A DNA stretch of 64,000 nucleotides, from assembly GCF_000167355.1 (NCBI RefSeq), contig NZ_AAEW02000007.1:62001-126000 (forward strand), given 5' to 3'. The stretch is from Desulfuromonas acetoxidans DSM 684. Lineage in GTDB: Bacteria > Desulfobacterota > Desulfuromonadia > Desulfuromonadales > Desulfuromonadaceae. Numbering within the stretch: the stretch's first letter is position 1; each line of letters begins with the position of its first letter. Position numbers and translations under genes: made by a program. This document shows, in pieces, positions 34,321-34,421 of the stretch. Under the pieces are notes generated by a model. The model had not been told where the DNA came from and searched no databases. It saw nothing but the letters and a program-made list of their open reading frames with translations.

Positions 34321-34384
34321 AAAATGAAAAAGGCGCCTGAAACTTTTCGCATGAAATCATGCGTCAAGTCGTCAGAGCGCCTTT
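34321..34384 (-). terminator. Intrinsic terminator in the glnK leader
   Basis: AAAGGCGCTCTGA pairs with TCAGGCGCCTTT (one bulged base, 34329-34384), capped by an inner CGCATGA/TCATGCG stem, and followed on the minus strand by TTTTTCATTTT. It ends only about 26 bases before the glnK ATG, so it must be read through for glnK expression. Confidence 0.85.
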
Positions 34385-34421
34385 GCCCTAGCCTCGCCTG
34401 ATAAAGCAACGCCGTTGTTGC
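34374..34421 (-). promoter_or_regulatory. ANTAR-type two-hairpin antiterminator of glnK
   Basis: Hairpin 1 (34406-34421) has stem GCAAC/GTTGC with loop AACGGC. Hairpin 2 (34374-34389) has stem AGGGC/GCTCT with one G-U pair and loop AAAGGC. Both loops have A at position 1 and G at position 4. Hairpin 2 shares bases with the 5' arm of the terminator, so forming it would prevent termination. The design and the AACGG loop sequence match the nifH leader. Confidence 0.8.

Follow-up and report, generated by a model that had tools for sequence, protein, structure and literature searches.

A probable ANTAR-dependent antiterminator in the glnK-amtB leader of Desulfuromonas acetoxidans and its predicted regulon with nifH

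In Geobacter sulfurreducens, the pair GnfK/GnfR, treated by Ueki and Lovley in 2010, reportedly constitutes a two-component system whose ANTAR regulator acts on nitrogen-fixation genes the leaders of which contain terminators. Pelobacter carbinolicus belongs to the same order as Desulfuromonas acetoxidans, the Desulfuromonadales. The genes gnfK and gnfR are GSU0941 and GSU2822, respectively, according to the available part of PMC7962754. The motif of ANTAR-target RNAs was defined by Ramesh et al. (2012, PMC3369931), and the accessible text of that paper places such RNAs in front of genes for P-II proteins, ammonium transporters, and nitrogenase and describes a nitrogenase regulon in P. carbinolicus, so that this kind of RNA, including these targets, is already known. 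The glnK leader of D. acetoxidans is not among the targets named in the same portion of text. A literature search for a glnK ANTAR leader in Geobacter or Desulfuromonas revealed only PMC3369931 as relevant among the matches listed, and we do not claim that the leader is unpublished.

Here, we analysed a window of D. acetoxidans DSM 684, i.e., the whole stretch of 64,000 nucleotides to which all coordinates refer unless a contig or locus is named. Judging from its sequence and predicted folds, the glnK-amtB leader very probably acts as an ANTAR-dependent transcription antiterminator forming one regulon with nifH. New in this work are the order-wide covariation, the probable outer helix of the first hairpin, and the finding that seven of the 36 genomes with the motif have the glnK switch and no nifH match.

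Anatomy of the glnK-amtB leader and chance expectation

All elements of the leader are located on the minus strand in the order sigma-54-type site, leader of about 120 nt, hairpin P1, hairpin P2, terminator, and U tract. The sigma-54-type element of glnK, TGGCACACCCCGTGCA (34541–34556), is an exact pattern match and presumably serves as promoter. Based on sequence and alignment, P1 (34406–34421) consists of the inner stem GCAAC/GTTGC closing the hexaloop AACGGC, and P2 (34374–34389) of the stem AGGGC/GCTCT closing the hexaloop AAAGGC, both loops displaying A1 and G4. Together with a probable outer helix, CCTG/CAGG, around its covarying inner stem, P1 extends over 34397–34427. The loop and 3' arm of P2 double as the 5' arm of an intrinsic terminator hairpin (34329–34384), which was found in the minimum free energy fold, is kept as pairing in relatives, and is predicted to be mutually exclusive with P2. 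Thus, two A1/G4 hexaloop hairpins, the second overlapping a terminator that would exclude it, give the leader the make-up of an ANTAR-target RNA. The site, the two loops, and the overlap had all been described in a sequence-only reading of this DNA and were seen here as well. That reading had put the end of the terminator about 26 bases before the start codon; the U tract (34327–34331) in fact stops 31 nt short of the ATG at 34295, with an AGGAG ribosome binding site between the two. The genes that follow are glnK (33957–34295, minus strand; Pfam P-II, 2.9e-33) and amtB (32607–33920, minus strand; Pfam Ammonium_transp, 1.2e-102). Folding of the leader resulted in −53.3 kcal/mol (z = −6.1 relative to 200 dinucleotide shuffles).

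When the 64 kb were scanned strictly, with both stems of at least 4 bp, A1/G4 hexaloops, and an overlapping terminator demanded, one site was returned; of 40 shuffled windows, four contained one site each (mean 0.1). In a relaxed scan, both the glnK and the nifH site were returned; 20 shuffled windows averaged 0.35 sites, and one of them had more than two. A weak site at 61033 on the plus strand, found under a laxer terminator rule, was lost under the tighter one and was discarded. In the whole genome, the pattern TGGCACN6TGCW has 36 sites, compared with 14 for the reversed pattern, so that a sizeable share of the 36 may have no promoter function. Only two of these 36 sites, those of nifH and glnK, have the arrangement downstream; it follows none of 36 antisense stretches and was absent after all 36 sites in every one of 20 mononucleotide shuffles, which confirmed that the glnK leader arrangement is more than chance.

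Conservation of the switch in related genomes

P-II genes were present in all 58 genomes compared (handles such as G015 are our own), the window's own counted. Altogether, 44 glnK-type leaders were viewed, 23 of which have sigma-54-type sites upstream, and 40 of them were aligned by MAFFT without any structure; left out were four in which inspection by eye revealed no motif (G048 two, G037 and G039 one each). Six other P-II leaders from five genus members (five of a second glnK, one of a third P-II paralogue) were set aside. A set of 35 leaders, i.e., the 40 minus those of G015, G037, G040, G049, and G050, whose P1 or terminator is degraded or non-canonical, was used for the energy and outer-helix tests.

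In the alignment of 40, both loops and their closing pairs were among the most conserved columns, and the outer pairs change together; the third pair of P1 from outside, for instance, reads CG, GC, AU, UA, UG, or GU. The covariation score of P1 and P2 was 0.345, compared with 0.177 in shuffles (0 of 500 reaching it) and at most 0.181 in versions slid by 1–3 columns, and cells with two-sided change numbered 63 versus 30.8 in shuffles (0 of 500). Two cruder counts did not exceed their controls, namely pairs with two-sided change (8, a number attained in 114 of 500 shuffles and rising to 9 after a +1 slide) and further pair types (24, attained in 196 of 500 and rising to 27 after the same slide). 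Restricted to the 35 leaders with both hairpins, the score was 0.352 versus 0.175; here, loop 1 has A1 and G4 in 35 of 35, and loop 2 has G4 in 35 of 35 and A1 in 34, G025 carrying G at position 1. Covariation extends to ten further sites that were not used to build the model and have no sequence in common with it, one of them in G030 and nine in named contigs (0.412 versus 0.210, 0 of 500 shuffles, nine distinct rows), with the restriction that they were found using a structure-containing model and hence lean towards that structure. This set excludes L219 (22.9 bits) and L171 (16.4 bits) and, by contig and score, the model loci L148, L149, L150, L153, L156, and L161. The compensatory changes predicted by the sequence-only reading for the glnK leaders of this order were thus found in both stems, in the aligned leaders as well as in the outside sites.

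The pairing of the terminator is kept in 84.6% of cells of the 40 leaders, versus at most 64.9% in slid versions. Its covariation score of 0.185 (0.134 in shuffles) was surpassed by the −1 slide (0.240), probably due to the upper terminator stem of the window's genus lying one column off. Given all of the aligned leaders, RNAalifold chose the terminator alone (two-sided changes in six of ten pairs), as is to be expected when two folds exclude each other. The third base of loop 2 is an A paired with U in 29 of the 40 leaders; the ten others that have a base on both sides comprise two G-U pairs, two compensated pairs (G025 and G056), and six unpaired bases. The use of loop bases in the terminator thus appears well supported by the alignment at the G and C positions and partly at the third base. 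Enforcing P1 and P2 gave a fold weaker than the best one by 4.3–17.9 kcal/mol (median 13.3) in 35 of 35 leaders, and the best fold contained the terminator in all 35. By predicted energy, the default state of the leader is therefore probably OFF, and since the terminator outcompetes the two-hairpin fold, a protein would be needed to switch the gene on. P1 is part of the predicted terminated fold in 28 of 35 leaders and absent from it in the five leaders of the window's genus.

The gap between the 4-bp stems of P1 and P2 measures 14–23 nt (median 18), which is long in comparison with the spacing constraint given for the eut system in the accessible part of PMC8934654. Pairing of the flanks of P1, summed over the 35 leaders, reached 164, versus 136 ± 5 in shuffles (0 of 500) and a mean of 140 (maximum 156.5 in 200) when flanks were swapped between species. 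Examples are CCTGC/GCAGG, GATCTC/GAGATC, and CGGCCC/GGGCCG. Significance resides in the summed score only, single leaders reaching p < 0.05 in 7 of 35 and the window's own CCTG/CAGG having p 0.79 alone. An outer helix on P1, which could shorten the linker, is hence probable.

Strong matches to a model built from these leaders (35 bits or more) were found in 36 of 58 genomes, all of them by coordinates just upstream of a P-II gene, which is true by construction for the 35 of these 36 leaders that built the model. Of 80 named loci, 14 have matches above 30 bits. A relative of the window's ANTAR regulator described below, i.e., a protein of 45% identity or more, is encoded in 35 of the 36 genomes with a strong match, compared with 12 of the 22 without (tally by eye; Fisher p 1e-4, uncorrected for relatedness); G019 and G039, with another kind of ANTAR protein, and G005, with two short pieces, were counted as lacking it. 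On contig C116 of G005, these two pieces are all that is seen of the regulator gene, which is perhaps broken or misassembled. In 15 of the 36 genomes with a strong match, regulator and glnK are no more than about 4 kb apart. Four members of one family (G016, G036, G047, and G055) have the regulator and nifH and no strong match.

A nifH match (E ≤ 1e-80) is absent in 7 of the 36 genomes (G012, G017, G020, G029, G030, G038, and G051), whose assemblies are 78–100% complete, and on this sequence evidence the glnK switch is more than a nitrogenase accessory. G037, G040, G049, and G050 are counter-examples, keeping the regulator with a degraded or non-canonical P1, the G037 leader also being devoid of a terminator. 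In the glnK leaders of G049, G040, and G050 (L039, L037, and L034, respectively), P2 and the terminator are intact, P1 is degraded, and the regulator is present, so that the sufficiency of a single hexaloop is put to a natural test in them. In G015, no ANTAR match over the cut-off was obtained, P1 is broken, and the terminator is weak-looking, as expected after loss of the switch.

Two further arrangements were noted. A second glnK-amtB operon on contig C2 (L142, about 6160 on the minus strand, G000) has its own dual-hairpin leader and terminator, with no exact sigma-54-type site there. In L215, from a Geobacteraceae MAG, one of two modules on the plus strand (1175–1225 or 3207–3257) precedes an ammonium transporter gene and the other a P-II gene that is followed by a second transporter gene.

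The nifH leader, the ANTAR regulator, and neighbouring genes

The sequence-only reading had ascribed the same design to the leaders of glnK and nifH. This was right as far as it went and incomplete, as the nifH leader of the window comprises two tandem ANTAR modules (28858–29005, minus strand), each with its own terminator-like hairpin, the first module being the one seen by the relaxed scan. Module 1 (28964–29005; sequence and relaxed scan) has the loops AGAGTG and AACGGA, the latter sharing AACGG with the first glnK loop, as had been pointed out. Module 2 (28858–28895), recognised by sequence and covarying when aligned, has the loops AAGGTT and AACGGG, and the U tract of its terminator-like hairpin is offset by several bases in this genome. 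Upstream, a pattern match identified the sigma-54-type element of nifH, TGGCACACCGCCTGCA (29040–29055, minus strand). Thirty nifH leaders, out of 40 genomes with a nifH match, were aligned; module 2 revealed a covariation of 0.259 versus 0.142 and eight pairs with two-sided changes versus 3.2 (each 0 of 500 shuffles). Innermost in its P1, 20 of 30 leaders have a pair, C-G in 14 and A-U in 6, whereas eight are unpaired and two gapped there; most of these 20 read as a five-base loop A-N-G-R-Y closed by this covarying pair, unlike the hexaloop rule.

The sequences of the two leaders had been called independent, and in line with this the glnK-derived model, which reaches 54 bits at glnK, itself among its training sequences, and 11.8 at the next-best place, misses the nifH modules of the window and matches nifH leaders of relatives only weakly (G043 25.2, G045 17.6, and G031 16.8 bits). 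As it gave no score on the window's nifH modules, its use as a finder for the whole regulon was rejected. By coordinates, the matches below 27 bits in the 58 genomes also include P-II paralogue leaders of G048 (22.1) and G037 (21.6) that had been judged motif-free by eye. G002, G007, and G008 have a second nifH-like gene (64–65% identity), the matches in G007 and G008 containing one internal TGA.

The likely reader of the leader is a REC-ANTAR response regulator (37077–37643, minus strand; Pfam Response_reg and ANTAR) encoded 2.8 kb upstream of it, the sole ANTAR match in the genome. Its neighbour, a GAF-PAS histidine kinase (34685–36316, minus strand; Pfam GAF, PAS, HisKA, and HATPase_c), is, by neighbourhood, its likely partner. 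We take the regulator to be GnfR-like and the kinase GnfK-like. Between the two lies a DRAT gene, draT (36276–37070, minus strand), and an ADP-ribosylglycohydrolase gene (DraG-like; 30737–31666, minus strand) is located downstream of amtB; these two genes may bring post-translational nitrogenase control into the same cluster.

Over its full length, the regulator aligns with EutV (6wsh, 1.2e-33) and with 1s8n, a putative antiterminator (2.7e-47), and its D54 is the expected phosphoacceptor Asp. Out of 11 RNA-contact residues of EutV taken from the accessible part of PMC8934654, eight are identical (R142, K143, K147, K149, E160, Y164, M172, and R175 in EutV numbering) and three are changed (R168 to Q, N173 to S, and R177 to T). 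All residues that the same text assigns to the recognition of G4 (R142, K149, E160, and Y164) and the M172 plug are kept, the corresponding residues being R141, K148, E158, Y162, and M170; the two-residue numbering offset between both proteins is our own count. With REC and ANTAR domains, the phosphoacceptor Asp, and the G4-contact residues, the protein is thus EutV-like. That glnK-amtB and nifH belong to one RNA-level regulon, as the sequence-only reading had suggested, is supported by these two being the only ones among the 36 promoter-like sites to have the arrangement and by the adjoining ANTAR regulator and kinase.

Proposed mechanism, alternatives, and known systems

We propose that transcription would start at the sigma-54-type promoter and that the unaided nascent RNA would form the terminator by pairing of P2's loop and 3' arm with the stretch immediately preceding the U tract, so that most transcripts would stop before glnK by default. 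Under fixed-nitrogen limitation, the neighbouring kinase would phosphorylate the REC-ANTAR regulator, a dimer of which would be recruited at P1, whose probable outer helix would fold away part of the apparent linker, and would hold P2; the terminator would then be blocked and glnK-amtB read. The same regulator would act on the tandem modules of nifH and on the second glnK-amtB operon, making up one RNA-level regulon. In such a scheme, the leader switch would be a second gate on nitrogen genes in these anaerobes, and ammonium uptake and sensing by GlnK-AmtB and nitrogen fixation would be tied to one RNA-level decision after the sigma-54 promoter. The accessible text of PMC10746287 reports that amt rises under nitrogen-fixing conditions in Geomonas, which fits the mechanism and does not test it.

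It is conceivable, and in our view rather doubtful, that the core target of a GnfR-type antiterminator in the order is glnK-amtB and not nitrogenase, the glnK switch being kept in genomes without a nifH match, maybe with an extended P1, and the nifH leaders having tandem modules in which P1 of module 2 is often of the pentaloop kind. If so, the outer helix of P1 would bring the two hexaloops close to each other.

As to the nitrogen dependence, a sigma-54 activator alone could explain it. That the antiterminator has a reader different from the neighbouring ANTAR protein, e.g., another protein, a small RNA, or a metabolite, is very unlikely. G030, whose leader is present with no ANTAR gene at E ≤ 0.001 in its 420-contig assembly, would fit such a reader; on the other hand, an Rfam search of the 64-kb window returned no family at gathering score, the dual A1/G4 hexaloop is the ANTAR target published in PMC3369931, as far as its available text goes, and the regulator accompanies the motif in 35 of 36 genomes and is the only ANTAR match in this one. 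We give even less credit to the idea that the hairpin is nothing but a constitutive terminator, shielding glnK from transcription that runs on out of the upstream regulator-draT-kinase genes, with hexaloops present by accident; a terminator is indeed present and the upstream genes run in the same direction, but the sigma-54-type site lies upstream of the terminator, which would block its own gene, and P1, outside the terminator, covaries, with A1/G4 kept in the 35 leaders. An action on translation instead of termination, for which the location of some ANTAR RNAs near ribosome binding sites in the accessible text of PMC3369931 might speak, is hardly credible with a U tract ending 31 nt before the ATG and terminator pairing kept in relatives.

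Returning to the ANTAR-dependent antiterminator as the preferred reading, the alignment provides compensatory pairs and natural P1-loss variants and bears on the sufficiency of one hexaloop. Compared with GnfK/GnfR of G. sulfurreducens, the kinase of D. acetoxidans adjoins glnK, and draT separates it from the regulator. EutV of Enterococcus faecalis (6wsh/6ww6, PMC8934654, as far as accessible) has the same domain order, and its REC Asp and G4-contact residues are kept here, whereas three contact residues, the genes controlled, and, by inference, the signal differ. With the eut, nas, and ami leaders in the available part of PMC3369931, the glnK leader shares the A1/G4 hexaloop pair, the overlap of P2 with the terminator, and an ANTAR protein in the genome, while it is distinguished by a linker of 14–23 nt, part of which the outer helix of P1 may fold away, and a sigma-54-type element.
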